Part shown: positions 1,180-38,525 of the stretch, in pieces
Layout: the number at the start of each line of letters is the position of its first letter
Numbering within the stretch: the stretch's first letter is position 1
DNA from: Gammaproteobacteria bacterium
Lineage (GTDB): Bacteria; Pseudomonadota; Gammaproteobacteria; Pseudomonadales; Pseudohongiellaceae
Direction: 5' to 3'
Assembly: GCA_030682575.1 (NCBI GenBank)
Contig: JAUXNX010000026.1
Coordinates: 62,001-126,000, forward strand
DNA: 64,000 nucleotides
Program-made: the position numbers and the translations under genes
Notes under the pieces: generated by a model
The model's input: only the letters and a program-made list of their open reading frames with translations
What the model was told of the DNA's origin: nothing
Databases searched by the model: none

Positions 1180-4005
1180 TTACAGATTCCAGTCTGCTGA
1201 CAACCAGAAACCACGGTTCCATGGAGTATGCAAACGTGACTCGAATCCGCCTTCTACTGGCAGACGCTGAGCTTTCTGGTCGAACAGGTTGCTGATACCA
1301 CCGCTCAGAGTCAGCTCGCTACCCATGAAATCATCGAACACATAGGCGTACTGTGCATTGACGATGACCTGTGAGTCGATCTGACGATCCATCTTGTAAC
1401 CGTCGAAAATGGACACTGCCACTTTGTCGATTACCACGTGGTGCTGGTAGTTGGCGCTGATTGATGCGCTGTGATTGCCCATGAACCAGTTGGTACGCAG
1501 GTTGCTCTTGATCTTCGGAAGAGGCGGTGCGATACCGGTGTTGGCATTCTGGAAGCCACGACCATCCCGAACAATTTTTGTGGAATCTGCGTACTCGTAG
1601 TTCGAGTAGTAGGTTGCACTCAATGTTGTCTGGAAGGTGCCCAGGTCACTGGTCTCGTACGTGTAACGTGCGCGGGCATCATACAACTCAACCCACAGGC
1701 TGCTCACGTTGTCAGTGAAGGCCAGAGTACGAACGACGCGGTAGTTGTTGGCCGGGTCGCGTTGCACGTAAGGGTTGGGATTTGCTGCCAGGAAAGCAAC
1801 ACCTTGAGCCAGGTGAGCGGGGTTGGCGGCACTGTAGTTGCTGATGCCAGTAGCCAGCTTCATGCGCTCAAACTCCTGATTGGTCACGTCCTGTGGCAAC
1901 AGTGCAGCGAAGCGGTCGGTGTACTCGATGTCCTGGTAATCCAGGCTCAGTTCGAGCGAGTCGATCGGCTGCCAGGTGAAACCAATATTCTTGATTTCAG
2001 ATTTTTCGGGCTTCAGGTTTGGATTGCCGGTGCTGCAACGGGCAGAGCCGTTGAGCTGAGTGCCGGTGATCAGATCGTTACCGCTGAAAGACTCGGCGCA
2101 AGGCTCGTTCGGGTCGAATGGACGTGAAGCCAAAGGTGTTGGTGCCAGGAAGCTTTCGCCCCATGACGCACGAATGGCCAGGTTTGGTAACGCTTCCCAG
2201 CGCAAGGCCACTTTTGGTGTTGTTGCTTCCAGGCCCTGGTCACCGAAACGCTCGGTACGACCGGCAAGCTGCATGCTCAATGTTTCCAGAATCGGTACTT
2301 CCAATTCCAGGAATATTGCCTTCACGCCTTGATCCAGATCTCTGTCCACCGGCAATGCCGCAGCAGGAGTGGCATCTGTACCATAGTCCTGACGCAGTTT
2401 TGCGTAGGTGCCGGCATAGGTCTTGTCATTACGATCACGCCACTGGAAACCAAATGCGGTCTGCAGCGCGCCCGCAGGCAGTTGCAGCACTTCGCCGGTC
2501 AACGTGGTTTCGAAGATCTCATAGAACACTTCGGCAGTAGTGCGCGAGTTCACGTGCTCCCACATCCAGTCTACAAGCTCCTGGCTGTTGCTGGTCACGC
2601 CGGCAACGTAGAACGGCGAACGCGGGTCTTGAGAGCCGAAGGGGTTCCACCACTCATTACCATTGACGCCACCTCGGCCATTGAGAGCGGCCTGCATTCT
2701 TGGCAGCAACAGCACTGGGTCGTCGGCATTGGTGCGGTTCTTCTGTCTGGAGTAGTAGGAATAGCCTGTCCAGGTATCGGAAACGTCGTAGCGTGCCGAG
2801 AGTTTGTGGCTCCAGGTGTAGTTGGCGCCGCGTACGCCCAGCGAGCCGTTGCTCTGATGCAGATGGCTTGGCAGGGTGCCATAGTCACTGAAAGGACGCC
2901 AGTTGGTGGGGCGTACTGCCACGCCAAAAGGGTTGGCCGGGTGATTTGCCGGAATTGGCAGCAATGTGTGGTTGGTGGTGACCGCAGTGGTCGCACTGGT
3001 ACGTGTTGTGCTCTCACTGTAGTTGAGGTTGGATTGCAGCTCGAACTGCAGCCAATCCTGTGCATCCCAGGTCAGGTTGTTGAACATCCCCATCTGCTGG
3101 CTTTCACGAGCGTAGTCATGCTGGGTGCCGTAGTTGAATCGGCAGACAGTGCCTTGGCGAACGCCGCTCGGCTGACCGTTCTTGTCCGTTTGCACGCCAT
3201 TGTTGAAGGTGCCGCACGAAGGATCAACCAAAGCTGTTGTGGCGCCGGTCAATCGTACAAACGAACCGGGGTTGCCGGTTGCAGACTCCTGGTTGTCATA
3301 ATCGAACTCGCGTGGTCGTTCGGTACGCATCAGTGGGGTCTTCTTGCTGTACTCCAGCGAGTTCACCCAGTTGATGTCGTTGTCGAAGCTCTTGCCGAAC
3401 AGATAGGAAACGCGTGGTTCTTCCATGCCACCGTCAAACGGCGTGCTGTAATAGGCACGCACACGGAAGCCATCGTATTGCTTGATGGGGATCAGGTTGA
3501 CCACACCAGCAACGGCGTCTGAACCGTACAGAGCCGAGCCGCCATCCAGAACGACTTCCAGGCGCTGTGTCGCGATATCCGGCAACAGGCTGGCGATGGC
3601 TGTATCGCGAATCACACGAGTGCCGTCCATCAGAGTCAGGGTGCTGTTGTCGCCCAGGCCGCGCAGGTTGAAGCCGGTGGTGACAGAGTCTTGTCCGCCA
3701 GTGTTGGTGGAACCGAGTACGTTGGCCACTGTGTCAGTGTTCTGAGTGTAGGTCAGGTCGCGGATGTATTGACCCAGACCTGGAGATCCGGACTGCAACA
3801 GATCGTCCTGGCTGATGGAGTCGATTGGAGATGCGCCAGTGAATTTGCTGTTGCGGATATAGGAGCCTGTTACGACGACTTCTTCGATCTCGTCTTCGGC
3901 AGCCTGTGCGTTGACTACCACGGGTACTGCCAGAGAAGAAACAAGGCAGCTGTGGATAAGGTGACGCAGATAAGCGTGCTTACGTGCTTTCGGGTTATGT
4001 GACAT
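1180..4005 (-). CDS. TonB-dependent outer-membrane receptor
   Basis: This 941-residue outer-membrane receptor would take up a scarce ligand using TonB/ExbB/ExbD energy. The N terminus has a signal peptide (about 1-35, ending VVVNAQA), followed by a TonB-box-like EIEEVVVTG near residues 40-48. The plug domain follows, with RGLGDNSTLTLMDGTRV and DGGSALYGSDAVAGVVNLI as its conserved signatures. The rest is beta-barrel sequence with the usual NPNLKPEKS-type block (NLKPEKSEIKNIGF). The protein is clearly a paralogue of the receptor at 29901-32732: plug signatures, an ANHPANPFG loop and C-terminal blocks are shared. No ferrichrome- or B12-specific motif is visible, so the ligand is unknown. The gene appears monocistronic, with a terminator 80 bases downstream. 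Confidence 0.93.
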   Translation of the reverse strand: MSHNPKARKHAYLRHLIHSCLVSSLAVPVVVNAQAAEDEIEEVVVTGSYIRNSKFTGASPIDSISQDDLLQSGSPGLGQYIRDLTYTQNTDTVANVLGSTNTGGQDSVTTGFNLRGLGDNSTLTLMDGTRVIRDTAIASLLPDIATQRLEVVLDGGSALYGSDAVAGVVNLIPIKQYDGFRVRAYYSTPFDGGMEEPRVSYLFGKSFDNDINWVNSLEYSKKTPLMRTERPREFDYDNQESATGNPGSFVRLTGATTALVDPSCGTFNNGVQTDKNGQPSGVRQGTVCRFNYGTQHDYARESQQMGMFNNLTWDAQDWLQFELQSNLNYSESTTRTSATTAVTTNHTLLPIPANHPANPFGVAVRPTNWRPFSDYGTLPSHLHQSNGSLGVRGANYTWSHKLSARYDVSDTWTGYSYYSRQKNRTNADDPVLLLPRMQAALNGRGGVNGNEWWNPFGSQDPRSPFYVAGVTSNSQELVDWMWEHVNSRTTAEVFYEIFETTLTGEVLQLPAGALQTAFGFQWRDRNDKTYAGTYAKLRQDYGTDATPAAALPVDRDLDQGVKAIFLELEVPILETLSMQLAGRTERFGDQGLEATTPKVALRWEALPNLAIRASWGESFLAPTPLASRPFDPNEPCAESFSGNDLITGTQLNGSARCSTGNPNLKPEKSEIKNIGFTWQPIDSLELSLDYQDIEYTDRFAALLPQDVTNQEFERMKLATGISNYSAANPAHLAQGVAFLAANPNPYVQRDPANNYRVVRTLAFTDNVSSLWVELYDARARYTYETSDLGTFQTTLSATYYSNYEYADSTKIVRDGRGFQNANTGIAPPLPKIKSNLRTNWFMGNHSASISANYQHHVVIDKVAVSIFDGYKMDRQIDSQVIVNAQYAYVFDDFMGSELTLSGGISNLFDQKAQRLPVEGGFESRLHTPWNRGFWLSADWNL

Positions 4006-29900: not shown

Positions 29901-32732
29901 ATGAAGTGTCGCTCTCGAAAGGGCAGTCGCCCGTTCGCCCATGATTACCTGTTAGGTGCTTTTGCTCTTTTTCTCATTCCTGTCACAGCACTCGGTCAGC
30001 AGAATGCGCAAGACACCGATATTGAAGAAGTTGTTGTCACCGGCTCCTTCATCCGCAACAGCCAATTCACCAACGCATCACCCGTTGAAACAATTACGCA
30101 GGAAGACATACGAAATTCAGGGGCAGCGAATCTTGGTGAATACCTGCGCGATCTTCCCTACATGGAGAACATCGACACTGTCGCCTCCGTTCTGGCCACC
30201 CAGGATGGCCAGCAGGACTCCAACTCTGCCCGCTTCAACCTGCGCGGACTTGGTACCGAAAGTACGTTGACTCTGATGGATGGTCGTCGGCAGATAAACG
30301 ATAGCGCTGTGTCAGCCTTGTTACCGGGCATCGCTCAGCGCTCTGTTGAAATCGTCACCGACGGTGGTGCCGCGCTGTACGGTTCTGACGCCGTTGCCGG
30401 TGTGGCCAACATCATTCCCTACAAGGAATACGATGGTATGACCGGTCGGGTTTACTACAAGACCGACCAGGAGAACAGCTCAGAGCAGTACACTGCCGAG
30501 TTCATGATGGGGCGGAGCTTCGATGTGGGTAATGGTCTGGACTGGGTCGGCGCCATAGAAATCGCCAAGCGCACCGCGTTCCTGGTTTCTGAGCGTCCCA
30601 AGTATCAGGAGTACTATGATCAGGACAGTGCCTACAATAATCCGGGACGCTGGACGGGTTCACCCACCGGTGCTGCCGCGAATGACCCGAGTTGTGGCAC
30701 CTTCAACGGCACCCAGACGGACATCAGCCAGTTCGGCTCATACCCCAGCGGTCAACCGTATGCCACCGGATGTCGTCTCTACTTCGGTGAGTGGCAGGAT
30801 TTTGGCCGCCCTTCACAAGGCATAACCTTCTACAGCAATCTGCGTTACCAGGCGACCGACTGGCTGACACTGGAATTCCAAGTGAATGTCAATGACCGGA
30901 CTTCTACGCTGGCCAGCTCCCCCAGTACCGCTGTTACATCGAATCTGACCACGCTGGTAGTGCCGGCCAACCACCCTGCCAACCCCTTCGGCAGGGCGAT
31001 GCGGCCATTGACATGGAGGCCAATCACCAAGGCTGGCACACGGCCCAGCGTACTCTCCGGCAATGGCATGGCGCTGACCGACTACAATTACTACGCCGAC
31101 GCCTACAAGTTCGGTGGCGAGTTCGAGATATCCAGTACTACCTGGCAAGGAGAGGCATGGATTGGCTATCAGGATTCCATGCGTGAATACGATGGTCGCG
31201 CCTGGCCATTGTCCCGCATGCGGGCAGCACTGAGAGGACAGGGCGGACCCAGTGGGAATCAATGGTTCAACCCCTTCGGATCGGCCGATCCGCGTTCCCC
31301 TTTCTACAATGCGGCGACTACCGCAAACAGTCAGGAGATGATGGACTGGCTGGTAGTCCCGAACAAGTACCGTGATACACAGGATCGGCAGACGTATTTC
31401 GACTTTGTATTCAACGGTGAAGTAATGGACGTGCCTAACGGCACAATACTTGCGGCAGTAGGTGGTCAGTGGCGCGAGCATACGGAATTTGAATTCGATA
31501 ACCCCGTCACTGCTCAGTACGACAACCTTTATGCCAACGCATTGTTGCCTTTGGTCCCGCCACAAGATCGTCCGTCCGCCGTACGTGCCGTCTTTGCCGA
31601 AGTCGAAATTCCGATTCTTGAAAATCTCGGGATCAAGGCTGCTGTCAGGAGCGAGGATTTCTACACCATTGGCTTCAGTGCGACCAAGCCCAAGATTTCC
31701 GTTCTGTGGGAGCCTTTGGAAACTTTGGCACTGCGTGCCAGTTTCGGGGAAAGCTTCTTGGCGCCAACTGCCAGACAGTTGCGTCCGTTGGGCAAGGATT
31801 CCTGCACCATCGTCACCACTGGCACCGATCCGCTGACTGGCATCTCCCTCGACGGCGTCGATAGCTGTACTTCCGGTAATCCTGTGCTGGGCGCCGAAGA
31901 GTCAGAGCTCGTCAATTTCGGTCTGAGCTGGAGACCCATCGAGGGGCTGAGCCTTGATCTGGATTATCAGGAGATCGAGTACATCGGGCGTATTTCCACC
32001 TTGGTCACCGCAGACGTGACTCGACGTGAGCTTAATGCGTTCCTGGCAGCCACTGGGCAGACTGCCGCGCAGCACACTCCGGCGACTGACGCGGCGGACA
32101 GAGCAGCGGGGATCGCCTGGGCGAATGCCAGCAACAACATTCTGATCACGCGAGCAGCTGACGGATCGGGTCGGGTGACGGACGTGTACAGGGCCCCCAT
32201 CAATCTGTCATCACAGTTTGTGGAAGGCATCGACTTCCGCCTGCGTTACAGCTTCGATGTGGGTGATCTAGGCAGTTTCACCGCCAGTCTGGGTGGGAAC
32301 TACTACACCCGTTGGGAGTATCTGCCAGACGAATTCTCAGCCATGACCAGCGGCGTCGCAAGGCAGAATGCGGATACCAACCTGGCGCCACCGCTGCCTC
32401 GCTACAAGGGCAACCTTGGATTATCCTGGTTCCGTCAAAATCACAGTGCCAGCGTGACGTTACGTCACCTCGGCAAGATGAAGTTCGACGATACTGCGTT
32501 CTCTCTGGGCTATGAAGCATTCGTGCCAGACTACATCGAGCCGATCACGAAAGTTGACGCCCGATACTCTTATCGCTTCAATGCGTTCAATGCTGACTCG
32601 AACCTGACGGTGGGTATCAACAATCTGTTCGATCGTGATGCACAGCGGCTGCCGATAGAGGGTGGTCTGGAAACCCGGATTGATGATCCGTTCGGACGTC
32701 AGTTCTACATGTCGATCGACTTCGATCTTTGA
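29901..32732 (+). CDS. TonB-dependent outer-membrane receptor
   Basis: This 943-residue receptor is paralogous to the one at 1180-4005. The ATG at 29901 has GGAG upstream and directly begins a signal peptide (about 1-32, ending VTALGQQ); the in-frame GTG at 29889 overlaps that ribosome-binding site. A TonB-box-like DIEEVVVTG precedes the plug (LRGLGTESTLTLMDGRR; TDGGAALYGSDAVAGVANII). The barrel keeps the ANHPANPFG loop, the FGESFLAPT block and a final aromatic-rich strand, FYMSIDFDL. It heads the unusual locus with copper-monooxygenase-like proteins, so its ligand may be their substrate or cofactor. That link is an inference. Confidence 0.93.
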   Translation: MKCRSRKGSRPFAHDYLLGAFALFLIPVTALGQQNAQDTDIEEVVVTGSFIRNSQFTNASPVETITQEDIRNSGAANLGEYLRDLPYMENIDTVASVLATQDGQQDSNSARFNLRGLGTESTLTLMDGRRQINDSAVSALLPGIAQRSVEIVTDGGAALYGSDAVAGVANIIPYKEYDGMTGRVYYKTDQENSSEQYTAEFMMGRSFDVGNGLDWVGAIEIAKRTAFLVSERPKYQEYYDQDSAYNNPGRWTGSPTGAAANDPSCGTFNGTQTDISQFGSYPSGQPYATGCRLYFGEWQDFGRPSQGITFYSNLRYQATDWLTLEFQVNVNDRTSTLASSPSTAVTSNLTTLVVPANHPANPFGRAMRPLTWRPITKAGTRPSVLSGNGMALTDYNYYADAYKFGGEFEISSTTWQGEAWIGYQDSMREYDGRAWPLSRMRAALRGQGGPSGNQWFNPFGSADPRSPFYNAATTANSQEMMDWLVVPNKYRDTQDRQTYFDFVFNGEVMDVPNGTILAAVGGQWREHTEFEFDNPVTAQYDNLYANALLPLVPPQDRPSAVRAVFAEVEIPILENLGIKAAVRSEDFYTIGFSATKPKISVLWEPLETLALRASFGESFLAPTARQLRPLGKDSCTIVTTGTDPLTGISLDGVDSCTSGNPVLGAEESELVNFGLSWRPIEGLSLDLDYQEIEYIGRISTLVTADVTRRELNAFLAATGQTAAQHTPATDAADRAAGIAWANASNNILITRAADGSGRVTDVYRAPINLSSQFVEGIDFRLRYSFDVGDLGSFTASLGGNYYTRWEYLPDEFSAMTSGVARQNADTNLAPPLPRYKGNLGLSWFRQNHSASVTLRHLGKMKFDDTAFSLGYEAFVPDYIEPITKVDARYSYRFNAFNADSNLTVGINNLFDRDAQRLPIEGGLETRIDDPFGRQFYMSIDFDL

Positions 32733-32760
32733 AGTTGGCTTGATGATTTGAAAGGAGATG

Positions 32761-32779
32761 GGGAGGCATGAGGCCTCCC
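32761..32779 (+). terminator. Short hairpin after TonB receptor gene
   Basis: GGGAGGC (32761-32767) pairs with GCCTCCC (32773-32779) around a 5-base loop, followed by TTTCTCTATCT. It is a weak terminator that could allow partial read-through into the next gene at 32926. Confidence 0.5.
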
Positions 32780-32925
32780 TTTCTCTATCTCACTCTTTTT
32801 CTGTAACACATTGCCAAACCTTTACCCCCCTTTTGGATGGACTTCCGGAAGCAGTGCTTCTATCCTTCGCAGTAATGTTGCGGAGGCCTGATCTCCGCAT
32901 TTTCAGAGACTTTGCGGGGGTTAGA

Positions 32926-34059
32926 ATGCTTAAGAGAGCGCTTCAAAACGTACTTATTGGAATGACCTTTGTCGGACTGGCAGCGCCAGGTGTACTGCAT
33001 GCCCAAGAGGCCGGAGGCATGCTGCAGGCTCGATTTCCCGAACTCGCCAACTATCTCAATGCATCAGAAGTGCTGCAAGCGACTGTTTTTGAAGAAATAG
33101 CGCTGACCAATGAGTCGCCCGATTCCGCTATAGGCAAGACTCTGCTGCGAGAATCTCTCGTGGAACTCAGCAAAGCCAGCTACTCCCACTACCACACTTC
33201 CGCCAACCATTTGGCTATGCTCGGGCCACACCGCTTGGCCGAGAGCCGAGCAACACCCGGGATCCAGGCCATGGTGCGTGAGGAATACAGTGCTGCCGAG
33301 ATCGAGAGAGCACTGCTGGCCAATGGCAGTATTCCACCCAGAGCAATGGGTGTGCTCAAGCGGGGACGTGAATTTGCTGAACAGTTGCTGGACATCTACC
33401 TCAACGATGCCATTTACGATAAGCATGGTGCTATTGATGAGGCGCTTGCCAATTACCTCAGCAATAACGAACTTTCGGTTGCCGCGCTGCCCAAGTCCTC
33501 CGATCTGCTGTCCAAGCACCAGTATGCTTACGCCTTTCGTGTTGGATTCCCGCAGTTGAGCGGCATGACTTGGGCTTCCCAGTGGTTGCAGCTTGCGACA
33601 TTGGAAATCACTATGATGGCTAGCTCACAGGCTTCCCTTGAAGCTGGTATTGCCAACGTCGCGGATCTTTACGTACAGAAGATCGCCCGCGCCCACGGCA
33701 GTATGATGTCGTTGCCAACAGACATTCCCACCATGCCGGTAATTGCTCCCAACGTATACAGCTTCCATCCTGGTGCGGCCTATGTGATTGACAATATTGC
33801 TGCATTGAAGGTAGTCATTGGCGATATTCTGGCGCACCCTGACGTGCCAGATCGTGGCGCTGCCATTGAAAACATGGTCGCGCAGTTCACAGCGAAGGAA
33901 GAATATTTGGATCAGGAAATGAATTATCTAACCTTTGTATTGCGTGGTGGCATATTCAATCAGGGTGGTCCTGCCCTTGGTGGCATGGAGCAATCCGAAC
34001 GTAACCGCTCCAGGGTAGCAACAGAAAGTCAGCACATCAGCAATTACCCCATGCGTTAG
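32926..34059 (+). CDS. Secreted protein of unrecognised family, 377 aa
   Basis: The ATG at 32926 gives an immediate signal peptide (MLKRALQNVLIGMTFVGLAA, ending VLHAQ), so the protein is exported. An upstream ATG-less extension would add non-signal sequence. The mature part is largely helical, with no cysteine I can see, many Met, Ala and Leu residues, and repeated helix-like segments such as IEEALANYLSNNELSVAALP-type stretches. I recognise no domain. A G-rich segment (GGIFNQGGPALGGM) lies near the C terminus. It follows the TonB receptor and precedes the redoxin/cytochrome gene, so it is probably part of the same system. Confidence 0.75.
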   Translation: MLKRALQNVLIGMTFVGLAAPGVLHAQEAGGMLQARFPELANYLNASEVLQATVFEEIALTNESPDSAIGKTLLRESLVELSKASYSHYHTSANHLAMLGPHRLAESRATPGIQAMVREEYSAAEIERALLANGSIPPRAMGVLKRGREFAEQLLDIYLNDAIYDKHGAIDEALANYLSNNELSVAALPKSSDLLSKHQYAYAFRVGFPQLSGMTWASQWLQLATLEITMMASSQASLEAGIANVADLYVQKIARAHGSMMSLPTDIPTMPVIAPNVYSFHPGAAYVIDNIAALKVVIGDILAHPDVPDRGAAIENMVAQFTAKEEYLDQEMNYLTFVLRGGIFNQGGPALGGMEQSERNRSRVATESQHISNYPMR

Positions 34060-34130
34060 AACAGGCGGGAGTTGAGTGGCATAGTCTGAAGTGGTTTCCT
34101 TTCATCATATGAGGCAGTCGATTAATCGCT

Positions 34131-35825
34131 ATGAACAAAGTTCACGTATCCTGTATCAGCGCCGCTATTCTGGGGCTTGGATCCACTGGTGCTACAGCCG
34201 CCCTTGACCGCACAGGAGACTTTGCGCTGCTCGACAACAGCGGCGAGTTCCATCAATTGAGTCGTTACCAACACCGCAAAGCTGTGGTGTTGATGTCTTA
34301 TGCGCAGAACTGCCATGGCATGGAAGACATGCTTTCGGAGTATCGTGCCCTCCAGAGTCGTTACGGGGGGCAGGGAATCGAGTTTCTGCTTCTGGATTCT
34401 CATGATCTCGGCAGAGCGGCTCTTGCGGATCTGAATGCCGGTCTGCCAATCCTGCAGGACAGTGGACAGCTCGTTTCCGAAGCGCTTGGTATTCGAAGTG
34501 CGGGTGAGGTCAGAGTCCTGAATCCTGACCGCATGTCATTATTCTACAGCGGGATGGTCAGCACGGAGCTTGATCAAACTCTCTCAGGATTGCTGCAAGG
34601 CCCCATCAGAGACACGGTCAAGGTCGAGGGAAGCAATAGCTGTGAGATCGCTTATCCAGTCAGGGATGCACATCTCGCCAGCGTCCCCGACTACGCTACT
34701 GAAGTGGCGCCTGTCATTATCGAAAATTGTGTCCAATGTCATCGGCAGTTCGGTGCAGGCCCGTTCCCCATGGACCGATATATTTCCCTTTTGGGTTGGT
34801 CACCCATGATCAAGGAAGTGTTGCTTAACAAGCGTATGCCCCCTGCCCAGATTGATCCTGAAAGAGGACATTCTCCTACTGCCCGCTATCTTGCCACTGA
34901 GGATATTCAGACTATCGTTCACTGGATCAACGCCGGAGGCCCGAGGGGTGAAGGAGCTGATCCGCTTGCAGAGCTGAGGTTTGAAGCAGATCAGGCTTGG
35001 ATTCTTGGCGAGCCGGACTATGTGTTGACCACTCCCGTGCATGCTGTGCCAGCAAGCGGCATCCTTGACGAAATATATGTCGACATGGAATTACCCTTCG
35101 AAGAAGACAAGTGGTTGCGAGCTGTACAGTTTCAACCAACAGCCAATGGCACGCTTCACCATTTGATTGCTGTCGTCACCGAGCCTGACGAAGATTTCTG
35201 GGGCGATGAGCGTAGCAGTACGACCGCTACCCGCCGCTTTGTTGAAGGGTATCAGCCAGGCAAGGCAATCGTCTCCGAGTTCTCGGAAGGTACTGGAGTC
35301 TTTATTCCCAAGGGACACAAGTTGTCCATGCAATTCCAGTATGTGGGGATGGGGGTGGCGGTCAGCAACGTCAACAAGATTGGGTTCTACTTTGCGGAAG
35401 AAAGCAGCTCTGAGTTAACTGAGAGGCTTGTGCAGGCTGTCTCCACACCTTTTGTGTTGCCACCCAACCAGCACGACATTCCGGTAGAGGCAGAGTATGT
35501 CTTTACAGAAGACGTGGTAATAACCGGGGTTAGAGCGCGTATGAATGAGCGTGGCAAGAAAATGAGTTTCTCTGTCACCCACCCCGACGGTACGACTCAC
35601 GATATTCTCAGTATTCCGGCCTACAACTATGCTTGGCAGCCTCATTATGTGCTTGCCAACCCTGTGCGCGTCCCGGCGGGCAGCATTGTTCATGTTATTG
35701 GTGCTTTTGATAATTCCGTTTCCAATCCTTTCAATCCTGATCCGGGCGCGGAAGTCAGATCCGGTTTGGGTAATGATGAGGAAATGTTCACAGGTTACTT
35801 TACCTTTCACCGTGCGAGTGAATAA
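34131..35825 (+). CDS. Redoxin-like / cytochrome c / copper type II monooxygenase-like fusion
   Basis: This 564-residue exported protein (signal peptide about 1-24) joins three modules. Residues 25-165 look like a thioredoxin/peroxiredoxin fold with a single Cys in SYAQNCHGME instead of CxxC. A c-type haem site, C200-V-Q-C203-H204, follows in a short cytochrome domain. The C-terminal half resembles the PHM/DBM-type copper type II ascorbate-dependent monooxygenase fold: H343-H344 (NGTLHHLIAVV) fits the CuH site, and NPFNPDPG and DEEMF fit the end of the second domain. Where relatives have P-H-x-H-L-R-G, this protein has A-R-M-N-E-R-G (from residue 469), so the CuM histidines appear lost. It is convergent with the related gene at 36019. 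Confidence 0.75.
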   Translation: MNKVHVSCISAAILGLGSTGATAALDRTGDFALLDNSGEFHQLSRYQHRKAVVLMSYAQNCHGMEDMLSEYRALQSRYGGQGIEFLLLDSHDLGRAALADLNAGLPILQDSGQLVSEALGIRSAGEVRVLNPDRMSLFYSGMVSTELDQTLSGLLQGPIRDTVKVEGSNSCEIAYPVRDAHLASVPDYATEVAPVIIENCVQCHRQFGAGPFPMDRYISLLGWSPMIKEVLLNKRMPPAQIDPERGHSPTARYLATEDIQTIVHWINAGGPRGEGADPLAELRFEADQAWILGEPDYVLTTPVHAVPASGILDEIYVDMELPFEEDKWLRAVQFQPTANGTLHHLIAVVTEPDEDFWGDERSSTTATRRFVEGYQPGKAIVSEFSEGTGVFIPKGHKLSMQFQYVGMGVAVSNVNKIGFYFAEESSSELTERLVQAVSTPFVLPPNQHDIPVEAEYVFTEDVVITGVRARMNERGKKMSFSVTHPDGTTHDILSIPAYNYAWQPHYVLANPVRVPAGSIVHVIGAFDNSVSNPFNPDPGAEVRSGLGNDEEMFTGYFTFHRASE

Positions 35826-35920
35826 CACTCAGTGGGGTTCGTCCTTAATCAGGCTCGATTGAATCTCAAATCACCTGCCGGGCGGGCACCCACAAACAAT
35901 CGACTTAATACACAGAAAAC

Positions 35921-35956
35921 AAAAAGGGGCAAAGATATTAATCTTTGCCCCTTTTT
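35921..35956. terminator. Bidirectional rho-independent terminator
   Basis: AAAAAGGGGCAAAGAT (35921-35936) and ATCTTTGCCCCTTTTT (35941-35956) form a perfect 16-bp stem with an ATTA loop. With A-run and T-run on opposite sides it can work from both directions, ending the convergent genes at 34131-35825 and 36019-37407. Confidence 0.9.
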
Positions 35957-36018
35957 GTTTCTTGCTTCTTCAAGTTCAGTCACCGGACCGGGATCCGGCG
36001 ACCTGCTTTCAAGAGTAT

Positions 36019-37407
36019 TTACTCAGCTGCAACTGAACGCTGTTTAGCTGCTTCACGCTGTGCAACGATCTCTGCATAACCCTCGTCATCGAGGTGAGTG
36101 ATCGCGATCCAGGCATGAGACATCTCGTCAGCAGTACGGCTACCACCTACAACCCACATATCTGGATCTGGGTTGTTCGGGTTGTTAGCTGTGTTGTCGT
36201 ACCACTGCTTGATCACCAGAACTGCGCCTGTTGGAAGCAGCGGAGCGACATCCGGCTCATACAGGTGGCTGTGGTGCCAAGTGGCGCTCCAGTTGGAGAT
36301 CTGGCTGATCTGCTCTGTACGACCAGTCGCTGGGTAGAATATCTCCAGTGACGCAGCGCGCAGACGCAGGTGGCCGTGAGGCTGGAAGCTGTCAACACGT
36401 ACTGGGTGGTCGAATGAGTGGAAGCCCTGAGTCATGGCAGTGCCATGCGGAGGAACAATCAGCTCGCCGTGACGCAGACCGTACAGCTTCAGATCCTGCT
36501 TGAAGCGTGCTTTCTCTGCGTAGTCTTCCGGGTGCAGCCAAATGCCGATTTCAACCACGTTGTCTTCGATCATCGCGCCAGGTGCAGTTGCACCTACTCC
36601 GCCTGGGAACAGGTGAATGTCCCAACGTACGCGTGAGTTTGCAGGGATGGTGCGGCACACGCCATCAGGCATGATCTCGCCCCACTTGCCCATTGCGTAC
36701 TCAGTCAGTTGACCGTAGTCCTCGTACTCGCCAGTCTCTGGGTTCATGATTTCCAGATCAGAGTTGGCGTGGTGAACCACAGTCTTGGCATTGGCGCGCG
36801 GCTTTACCTGTATTGCCTTGATGCAGCGGTCCTGAGTCAGGCCGGTCATCACGTACGGGCGGTGCCACATGTCGTTACCAATAGCGGGAACGTCAATAGA
36901 CTCGGAGTCCAGAATCAGGTTAGGTTGGCCGAACTGGGCTGCAAAGTTCCACTCGTCCAGGCTTGGGATATCCGGTACGGGAGGAGTACGATCACCCCAA
37001 TCGCCTTCCGGAGCACCTTGCTGTACCCAGGCAGTGATCGTATCGATCTCTGACTGATCCAGACGCCAGTCGCCTTGCAGCTGCTGGATGCCAATACCGT
37101 GGTCGTACGAATAGGGAGGCATTTCACGCGTCTCTACTTTGTACTGAATGAGCGGAGCCCAAGGACGGATCTGCTCATAGTTAGTGAACTGCATTGGGCC
37201 GATACCGCCTTCGCGGTGGCAGACTACACAGTTCTCATTGATGATCTCTGCAACGTGGTCTGCATAAGTCACTTGACCTGCGTCAATTGACAGACCTGTT
37301 GATTGTGCTTGAGCCTGGGCGTTAAGCCCCAACACTGCAAGTACTGCAAAGCCCAAAACGGCCTTTCCTGCATGTTGTTTCTTCGTAAAACACTGCTTTA
37401 TTCTCAT
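36019..37407 (-). CDS. Cytochrome c / copper type II ascorbate-dependent monooxygenase-like protein
   Basis: This 462-residue exported protein has a signal peptide (about 1-35, ending AQAQAQ). A haem c site, C60-V-V-C63-H64, lies in a planctomycete-type cytochrome-like domain (NENCVVCHREGGIGPMQFTN). The C-terminal part matches the PHM-type copper monooxygenase fold: H212-H213 (TVVHHAN) and H265 (DIHLF) as likely CuH ligands, H344-x-H346 (QPHGHLR) as the CuM pair, and M429 (TADEMSHAW) as the CuM methionine. All ligand positions are by-eye assignments. Compared with the redoxin fusion next door, this one keeps the full set and so could be catalytically active. The gene at 37581 lies upstream on the same strand. 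Confidence 0.78.
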   Translation of the reverse strand: MRIKQCFTKKQHAGKAVLGFAVLAVLGLNAQAQAQSTGLSIDAGQVTYADHVAEIINENCVVCHREGGIGPMQFTNYEQIRPWAPLIQYKVETREMPPYSYDHGIGIQQLQGDWRLDQSEIDTITAWVQQGAPEGDWGDRTPPVPDIPSLDEWNFAAQFGQPNLILDSESIDVPAIGNDMWHRPYVMTGLTQDRCIKAIQVKPRANAKTVVHHANSDLEIMNPETGEYEDYGQLTEYAMGKWGEIMPDGVCRTIPANSRVRWDIHLFPGGVGATAPGAMIEDNVVEIGIWLHPEDYAEKARFKQDLKLYGLRHGELIVPPHGTAMTQGFHSFDHPVRVDSFQPHGHLRLRAASLEIFYPATGRTEQISQISNWSATWHHSHLYEPDVAPLLPTGAVLVIKQWYDNTANNPNNPDPDMWVVGGSRTADEMSHAWIAITHLDDEGYAEIVAQREAAKQRSVAAE

Positions 37408-37580
37408 GATCCTCTCCTCGTTTGGGTGAGCAGTGCCAGCAATGTAAATCTACCGCCAGTACTTGTCCACCATTTCATTATTGTATCTGCAACGATTTGT
37501 GACGACCTGACAACCATGCCTTCAGAAGAAGAGTGTTTGCCAGGTTTTCCTGCTGATCAATCATTAAAACAACTTTCTTA

Positions 37581-38525
37581 TCAAGGTGTTACGGTCACCT
37601 TATGGTAGGCGTTTGTCCAGCAGCACTGGTCGCCATAACTGCTGTCCGCTGCATCGTGGTTGGTCACCGCTGCGCGAATAATGTATTCACCTGGTACAGA
37701 GAACGTAGCTACTACGCTTGCGACACCGTGGCCCAGTGGTAGACGAACCTGATTGGGGTCGTTTGCCTGCGCTCCACGAGGACGTCGTGCGCCTTCCACT
37801 GGTGTTGTGGGGGCTGGTGTAGATTCGTGCCTTGTGAAGGTCACATTGGCTGCTGCACCTTGATGAGCCTGCCACGTCACCATGACTGGCACTGGCTCTA
37901 CGTAACGTGGATCAGTAGTGTCGCGCACAGAAATATCTTCTGCATGTACTGTCAACGTCAATGGGCTTCCTGCTGCCACGGTCAGCGGTGCATCCGCAAT
38001 GATACCCATCGGATCCTGGCCGCGGGGGCCATTCGCAGTAAATCCCACCAGTGGAGCAACGGTACCTGCAGGACGTGGCTTCTTGTCGAGCGTGTAACCA
38101 AGTCTGCCAATACGGCCTGGGACCCGCAACATTTCGCCATTTCCGGTCTTGATGTTCCACCAGATTGACTGATCGCGCATGGACGCCGGAACGGTCACTG
38201 TGAATACGCCAACGGATCGGCCTGTTGCGAAGTGCGTGGGCTGCATGCCGTTGAACTGCTCAGGCTCAAGGAAGTTGTTCGGACCGATTGGAATGTCCAG
38301 TGTCTGGTCTGTGTTTCTGTTGTGATAGCCGAACGATACGGTGAAAGACCCGTCTTCGTTGTCATACGAGCCTTCCATGATTGGAAGCACCGGCAAGCCG
38401 GTAGGCGTATTCAGGCTCAAAGGCCGCGGCGGGGGGGTTGGTTGGGCTTGGGCAGGCATCATACTGGCCGCTACCAGGGTCATGCCCAGCAGAAGACCAA
38501 CAACTGTCCGAATGTTCATTTTCAT
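37581..38525 (-). CDS. Secreted protein of unknown function, 314 aa
   Basis: The signal peptide is about 1-27 (VVGLLLGMTLVAASMMPAQA, then QPTPPPRP). The mature protein appears to be all-beta: DGSFTVSFGYHNRNTDQTLD, VFTVTVPASMRD and a C-terminal Ig-like strand set (VASVVATFSVPGEYIIRAAV). Two cysteines occur together in DQCCWTN near the end. I recognise no named family. It is upstream of, and on the same strand as, the cytochrome/copper protein gene at 36019, with 173 bases between. Shared transcription is plausible, and a partner role as an assembly or substrate-binding protein is inferred from position only. Confidence 0.75.
   Translation of the reverse strand: MKMNIRTVVGLLLGMTLVAASMMPAQAQPTPPPRPLSLNTPTGLPVLPIMEGSYDNEDGSFTVSFGYHNRNTDQTLDIPIGPNNFLEPEQFNGMQPTHFATGRSVGVFTVTVPASMRDQSIWWNIKTGNGEMLRVPGRIGRLGYTLDKKPRPAGTVAPLVGFTANGPRGQDPMGIIADAPLTVAAGSPLTLTVHAEDISVRDTTDPRYVEPVPVMVTWQAHQGAAANVTFTRHESTPAPTTPVEGARRPRGAQANDPNQVRLPLGHGVASVVATFSVPGEYIIRAAVTNHDAADSSYGDQCCWTNAYHKVTVTP

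Follow-up and report, generated by a model that had tools for sequence, protein, structure and literature searches.

Introduction

Do five consecutive genes for exported proteins in a gammaproteobacterial genome form one enzyme system, and what chemistry would such a system perform? The genes lie in a 64,000-nucleotide stretch, here called the window, which corresponds to C28:62001-126000 of a 3.73 Mb Pseudohongiellaceae genome. An earlier note on this DNA had described five large exported proteins in a row, and all five open-reading frames were located as described: a TonB-dependent receptor (TonB), a protein labeled orphan (ORPH), two proteins joining a haem c site to a PHM-like domain, of which one also contains a redoxin domain (RedPHM and cytPHM), and a β-rich protein (BETA). 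Each begins with a Sec-type signal peptide, as judged by eye. The answer favored here, to which an even chance is given, is that ORPH, RedPHM, cytPHM and BETA form the core of a PHM/DBH-type copper monooxygenase located in the periplasm and fed with electrons by the haem c of its own chain. The reading of the earlier note is partly supported: a redox module of the envelope that involves haem, copper and an enzyme of the PHM type is borne out.

The cytPHM enzyme and its partner gene BETA

Pfam, NCBIfam and PDB profile searches with cytPHM all failed to detect PHM, and structure comparison was therefore used. The predicted structure matches the two-domain PHM/DBH fold, with 244–248 residues, most of the PHM core, aligned to PHM at ~12% identity. 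In type II copper monooxygenases the CuH site consists of three His residues and the CuM site of an HxH motif and a Met. The candidate ligands in cytPHM are His212, His213 and His265 for CuH and His344, His346 and Met429 for CuM, and all six are invariant in an alignment of 45 sequences (44 of 46 listed and that of the window). The alignments used here consist of open-reading frames from named loci (L numbers) within a set length range; broken or cut genes are missing from them and some near-duplicates were dropped. The cytPHM genes of L023 and L025, each broken into two reading-frame pieces, are accordingly not included. The haem c site (Cys60, Cys63 and His64) is equally conserved, the CxxCH and Met-Pro-Pro motifs being invariant in 45/45 sequences, and Met96 is probably the axial haem ligand.

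BETA has no Pfam or NCBIfam match, and its single match among PDB sequences (E = 0.066) is of no use; its alignment comprises 27 of 33 listed sequences and that of the window. Its gene is closely tied to cytPHM, which at 87 of 117 BETA places is found on the same strand and no more than 500 bp away. In 65 of these pairs cytPHM comes first, and the remainder are BETA-first, as in the window. Within the source genome cytPHM matches 17 places, which on reading correspond to 15 genes, six of the cytPHM type and nine of the redoxin type, one of the latter in pieces (L021:8759-10776). BETA adjoins all six cytPHM-type genes; of its eight copies in this genome, two on contig C9 stand without a recognizable cytPHM. 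BETA genes lacking a recognizable cytPHM neighbor were noted at L148:9032-9955 and L149:9065-10054.

RedPHM and its degenerate copper site

RedPHM matches the redoxin family PF00578 (E = 3e-07) and is homologous to cytPHM, with about 25% identity and an E value of about 1e-24. PF03712 is matched weakly by 8 of 21 RedPHM relatives (E up to 1, best 1e-05) and not by the RedPHM of the window; its PHM-like fold is inferred from homology, while that of cytPHM was found by structure comparison. The RedPHM alignment contains 21 sequences (20 of 22 listed and that of the window). The haem site is retained, CxxCH and Met-Pro-Pro being invariant in 21/21, with the Met as the presumed axial ligand. The two haem c sites, the redoxin domain and, for cytPHM, the PHM-like fold of the earlier note are borne out. 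One Cys of the redoxin domain and a second Cys ahead of the haem domain are also conserved in all 21 sequences.

The copper site, on the other hand, is degenerate, which corrects the earlier note, and an equivalence of the two proteins as copper monooxygenases is not supported. The HxH motif of CuM is replaced by (R/K)MN in 18/21 sequences, including that of the window. Other changes are fewer: the second CuH His is altered in three sequences, the third is Gln in four, and Val or Ile takes the place of the Met in six. Fifteen of the 18 (R/K)MN proteins are encoded directly behind ORPH, and the other three (L087, L098 and L099) elsewhere within an ORPH locus. HxH is retained in three proteins (L057, L058 and L061), none of which directly adjoins ORPH. 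The same distribution is seen within the source genome, where six redoxin-type paralogues away from ORPH are readable in the alignment, five with HxH and one with QxH, while the RedPHM behind ORPH in L020 has RMN, as in the window.

ORPH, a helical protein with a His/Met loop

The predicted structure of ORPH is all-α (pLDDT 82). The protein has no PDB sequence match and no useful Pfam or NCBIfam match, and a fold search of the PDB gave helical matches at chance level only, none significant. The label orphan is not supported. A scan of GTDB contigs with an ORPH alignment yielded 105 relatives, of which the best 80 were kept, many of them in recurring gene company. The alignment contains 78 sequences (77 of 78 listed and that of the window). 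Its most marked feature is a loop at residues ~78–99, in which the mean fraction of His and Met is 0.31, as compared to 0.056 in the rest of the protein, and exceeds the rest more than twofold in 78/78 sequences. This loop was picked after viewing the alignment; as a control free of that choice, protein clusters of the ORPH loci with at least five members were ranked by local His/Met density, and ORPH ranked first among 49. Eight His or Met within 24 residues occur in 56/84 ORPH proteins versus 5/641 other proteins. On this compositional evidence ORPH is a candidate periplasmic copper-binding accessory protein.

The SHYH form of the loop is present in all 18 ORPH proteins encoded directly before RedPHM, and RedPHM follows none of the 65 ORPH proteins of the Met/His type. 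The SHYH form is probably one clade, and the 18 cases are therefore not independent events.

ORPH was also considered as a PHM-specific protein; this was rejected, 40 of the 80 loci having no cytPHM in the fetched flank. A second conserved setting (L044, L046, L053, L064, L066, L072 and similar loci) contains a SorA-like Mo-oxidoreductase, a small cytochrome c and a DUF5916 protein, sometimes with a multicopper oxidase or a TPR protein. An ORPH-like region in a 678-residue open-reading frame (L056:9047-11083) stands in another gene context in a metagenome-assembled genome (MAG) labeled Gemmatimonadetes, which may reflect binning or transfer.

The recurring neighborhood

Four of the five genes, all except TonB, co-occur in several arrangements; a recurring neighborhood, the check named in the earlier note, is supported for these four. 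The order of the window, ORPH-RedPHM convergent with cytPHM-BETA, is kept in 12/12 loci L023–L034, which share a longer synteny including antiporter and thiolase genes and, where the contig extends, FadJ. Other arrangements are cytPHM-BETA-ORPH-RedPHM (L035–L037), ORPH-cytPHM-BETA-ORPH (L040–L042), cytPHM-BETA-ORPH-ORPH-RedPHM (L043) and cytPHM-BETA-ORPH (L047, L051 and L059), a contig end leaving BETA-ORPH in L049 and L055. L035 belongs to strain LSUCC0112, a relative that is reported to have been cultured (PMC6606908). ORPH is also found with genes for a GMC dehydrogenase, subunit 3 of gluconate dehydrogenase and cytPHM, with a tandem arrangement at several such loci (e.g. L067, L080, L081 and L087). 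The source genome has four ORPH copies: in L011 and L012 (cytPHM-BETA-ORPH), in the window, and in L020, before RedPHM and a TonB receptor.

The fetched flank contains cytPHM, BETA or RedPHM in 45 of the 80 ORPH loci; cytPHM is present in 40 and BETA accompanies it in 31 of those. Contig ends cut many of the loci. Since many are also closely related to one another, the counts are not independent, and Fisher tests on the locus contents, which ignore this relatedness, are not taken as evidence.

Among the best 80 of 105, the nearest named relatives belong to Gammaproteobacteria/Pseudomonadales and are for the most part MAGs, with Pseudohongiella and OM182 represented. A window-type locus also appears on a contig titled Klebsiella pneumoniae (L028), probably a wrong MAG label. 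Of 57 relatives, 24 carry BETA (E ≤ 1e-8), exactly these 24 also carry cytPHM (E ≤ 1e-60), and 21 carry ORPH. At 36 of 46 ORPH places (of 48 rows, two short fragments being dropped) BETA or cytPHM lies within 5 kb. In 21 genomes of other families of the order BETA, cytPHM and ORPH all had no match at these thresholds. Samples of the class gave BETA in one of 274 genomes, the source genome itself, and cytPHM (E ≤ 1e-15) in four of 185, the source genome counted. The range of the module is narrow and its copy number much expanded inside that range.

The TonB receptor

The receptor of the window contains plug and barrel domains (PF07715 and PF00593, both above cut-off). The earlier note had placed it in the unit, but no profile match to a receptor of this kind was found in the fetched flanks of any of the 12 syntenic named loci. 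Four genomes carry its orthologues (77–93% identity) on other contigs, and the three inspected have no PHM gene near. As core member TonB was consequently rejected; because of these absences and the orthologues elsewhere, it most likely moved in beside the module, a lineage-specific arrival outside the conserved core. In L023/L166, among the closest relatives, with an ORPH 85% identical to that of the window overall and 93% in the best segment, an α/β-hydrolase gene directly precedes ORPH.

Receptors of the same subfamily do recur beside sister loci. At 13 of 71 places (72 counted, less half of one split gene) such a receptor lies 234–457 bp from BETA or cytPHM, in 13/13 cases on the same strand, as against a generous chance expectation of 1.8, and a link between receptor and monooxygenase at those loci is therefore probable. 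A second receptor of the subfamily, 43% identical, is encoded in the window itself at 1180-4005.

Gene layout

The positions of the features are collected in Table 1. The convergent layout around a strong bidirectional terminator, described in the earlier note, was found again: the stem is listed on both strands, and the top three rows of the terminator scan are this one palindrome. Over the scanned region 12 terminator-like sites were counted versus 9.0 ± 3.1 in shuffled sequence, i.e. about chance. For ORPH the list of open-reading frames gives 32758-34059; the later ATG was preferred as start, its frame opening with a signal peptide and aligning with the relatives.

Table 1. Features of the locus, in window coordinates.
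Feature	Position	Strand	Description
TonB	29901..32732	+	TonB-dependent receptor; ATG at 29901
Terminator-like hairpin	32760..32780	+	Between TonB and ORPH; weaker, may be chance
ORPH	32926..34059	+	Exported all-α protein with His-containing loop; candidate copper-binding accessory protein
RedPHM	34131..35825	+	Redoxin domain behind a signal peptide, then haem c (CxxCH, Met-Pro-Pro) and a PHM-like domain with R-M-N in place of the CuM His pair
Intrinsic terminator	35917..35960	both	Two-way, 20-pair stem, between the convergent gene pairs
cytPHM	36019..37407	-	Signal peptide, haem c and a PHM/DBH-fold domain in which the six putative copper ligands are all present
BETA	37581..38525	-	Exported β-rich protein; partner gene of cytPHM

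Proposed mechanism and alternative explanations

The genes, the fold, the conserved ligands, the gene linkage and the make-up of the loop were observed directly; the roles that follow are proposals. It is proposed that cytPHM would bind two coppers and hydroxylate a periplasmic substrate using O2, which would be activated at CuM, while the covalent haem c would hand respiratory electrons to the coppers, replacing or supplementing ascorbate. BETA may be a structural or substrate-presenting partner of cytPHM. ORPH could hold copper through its His/Met loop and load or protect cytPHM, and RedPHM, with its haem c and broken CuM site, may act as an electron or copper shuttle and not as a second oxygenase.

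A GMC dehydrogenase is encoded in 12 of the 40 cytPHM loci versus 2 of the 40 cytPHM-free ORPH loci, and a PQQ alcohol dehydrogenase at L038. As alcohol dehydrogenases adjoin some sister loci, the product of cytPHM is suggested to be an alcohol that is oxidized further, and a hydroxylate-then-dehydrogenate pathway is possible at the GMC-bearing loci. GMC oxidoreductases near ORPH and cytPHM were seen at L067, L080, L087, L094 and L095, with gluconate 2-dehydrogenase subunit 3 and a cupin where mapped.

Several observations weigh against the proposed oxygenase. None of the 45 cytPHM proteins matches the Pfam Cu2_monoox models at E ≤ 1, and the cytPHM sequence profile did not retrieve PHM from the PDB; the link to PHM therefore rests on fold and motifs. 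The cytPHM model has an overall pLDDT of 77, falling below 50 at residues 419–428, next to Met429; the six residues are putative ligands. No partner lies within 500 bp at 30 of 117 BETA and 36 of 123 cytPHM places, some of them at contig ends. The loop of the window clade (SHYHT....H) has three His and one Met, most relatives being Met/His-rich, and 28 of the 84 ORPH proteins, that of the window included, fall short of eight His or Met in 24 residues. In half of the ORPH loci (40/80) the fetched flank lacks cytPHM, and 28 of these 40 encode a Mo-oxidoreductase, a small cytochrome c or a DUF5916 protein, which places ORPH in more than one redox setting.

The same loop would also suit a module that buffers, oxidizes or detoxifies periplasmic copper, with the PHM-like domains as carriers and haem c as an electron sink. 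The degenerate site of RedPHM is in line with this, as is a CopC gene that adjoins one sister cytPHM-BETA pair, but all six residues of a complete two-copper oxygenase site are kept in every aligned cytPHM and a GMC dehydrogenase is encoded at 12 of the 40 cytPHM loci; copper handling is considered unlikely. (The CopC-domain protein, PF04234, at L014:8274-8783 is divergent from its pair, which a TonB receptor follows.) Still less probable is peptide chemistry of the PAM type, in which cytPHM would hydroxylate a C-terminal glycine and a separate NHL β-propeller would complete α-amidation. Such propellers adjoin two sister PHM loci (L016:5606-6724 and L018:7416-8459), and for that of L016 the PDB search gave a match to the PAL domain of PAM (3fvz, E = 1.2e-15); other NHL proteins match it better (best E = 2.5e-37), two of the ten NHL places in the genome are within ~1.1 kb of a PHM gene, with a third inside one such cluster, and no propeller was seen at the window locus.

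The five-gene import-and-oxidize system of the earlier note, with TonB as a member, draws on the adjacency in the window and on the same-strand receptors at sister loci; a receptor also follows ORPH-RedPHM in L020 and cytPHM-BETA in L014. The unmatched receptor in the 12 syntenic loci, the orthologues on other contigs and the terminator-like hairpin between TonB and ORPH make it very improbable. Shared ancestry of the chromosome region with no functional link would account for the 12 closest loci with their longer synteny; it is disfavored and rated lowest, as the genes keep together in several distinct surroundings, either cytPHM or BETA can come first, and the presence patterns agree. The copper monooxygenase of the PHM/DBH kind is the preferred explanation of the core. 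Its fuller form is advanced only tentatively, at clearly below even probability: a respiration-driven, haem c-wired PHM/DBH site, served by new helical ORPH copper loaders and a haem c partner with a decayed oxygenase site, would exist as many paralogues in one marine/freshwater family and act on several periplasmic substrates.

Relation to known systems

Neither the four-gene module nor the ORPH loop family was found in the open-licence literature among the matches listed. A haem c-wired bacterial enzyme of this kind, if true, would show how PHM/DBH enzymes can run on respiratory electrons. ORPH proteins, for which no clear structural match was obtained, are a candidate, open to testing, for the metal supply of periplasmic copper enzymes. 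The copy number, on reading at least 15 homologous genes in a single genome, suggests importance of this chemistry for a group of aquatic bacteria with a poorly known metabolism.

Most knowledge of PHM and DBH comes from animals, and ascorbate usually drives these enzymes. The cytPHM enzyme is a variant of this kind. It shares with PHM the fold over most of the core and six ligand-like residues that follow one another as they do there, and differs by its N-terminal haem c domain, its bacterial and exported nature, the ~12% identity and the lack of a Pfam match. DBH carries a DOMON domain where cytPHM has haem c, and we know of no counterpart of BETA or ORPH for DBH. At the annotation level, PF03712 proteins that carry haem domains are known from bacteria. 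Some RedPHM relatives reach this family, as described above, whereas the RedPHM proteins adjoining ORPH differ from it by the loss of the CuM His pair.

The loop of the ORPH family is comparable to the internal His/Met-rich segment of CopI and other periplasmic proteins with His/Met-rich copper motifs (PMC13308877). CopI, a cupredoxin-like protein, has been implicated in tolerance to copper (PMC13308877), while ORPH is predicted to be all-α and is linked to redox enzyme genes.

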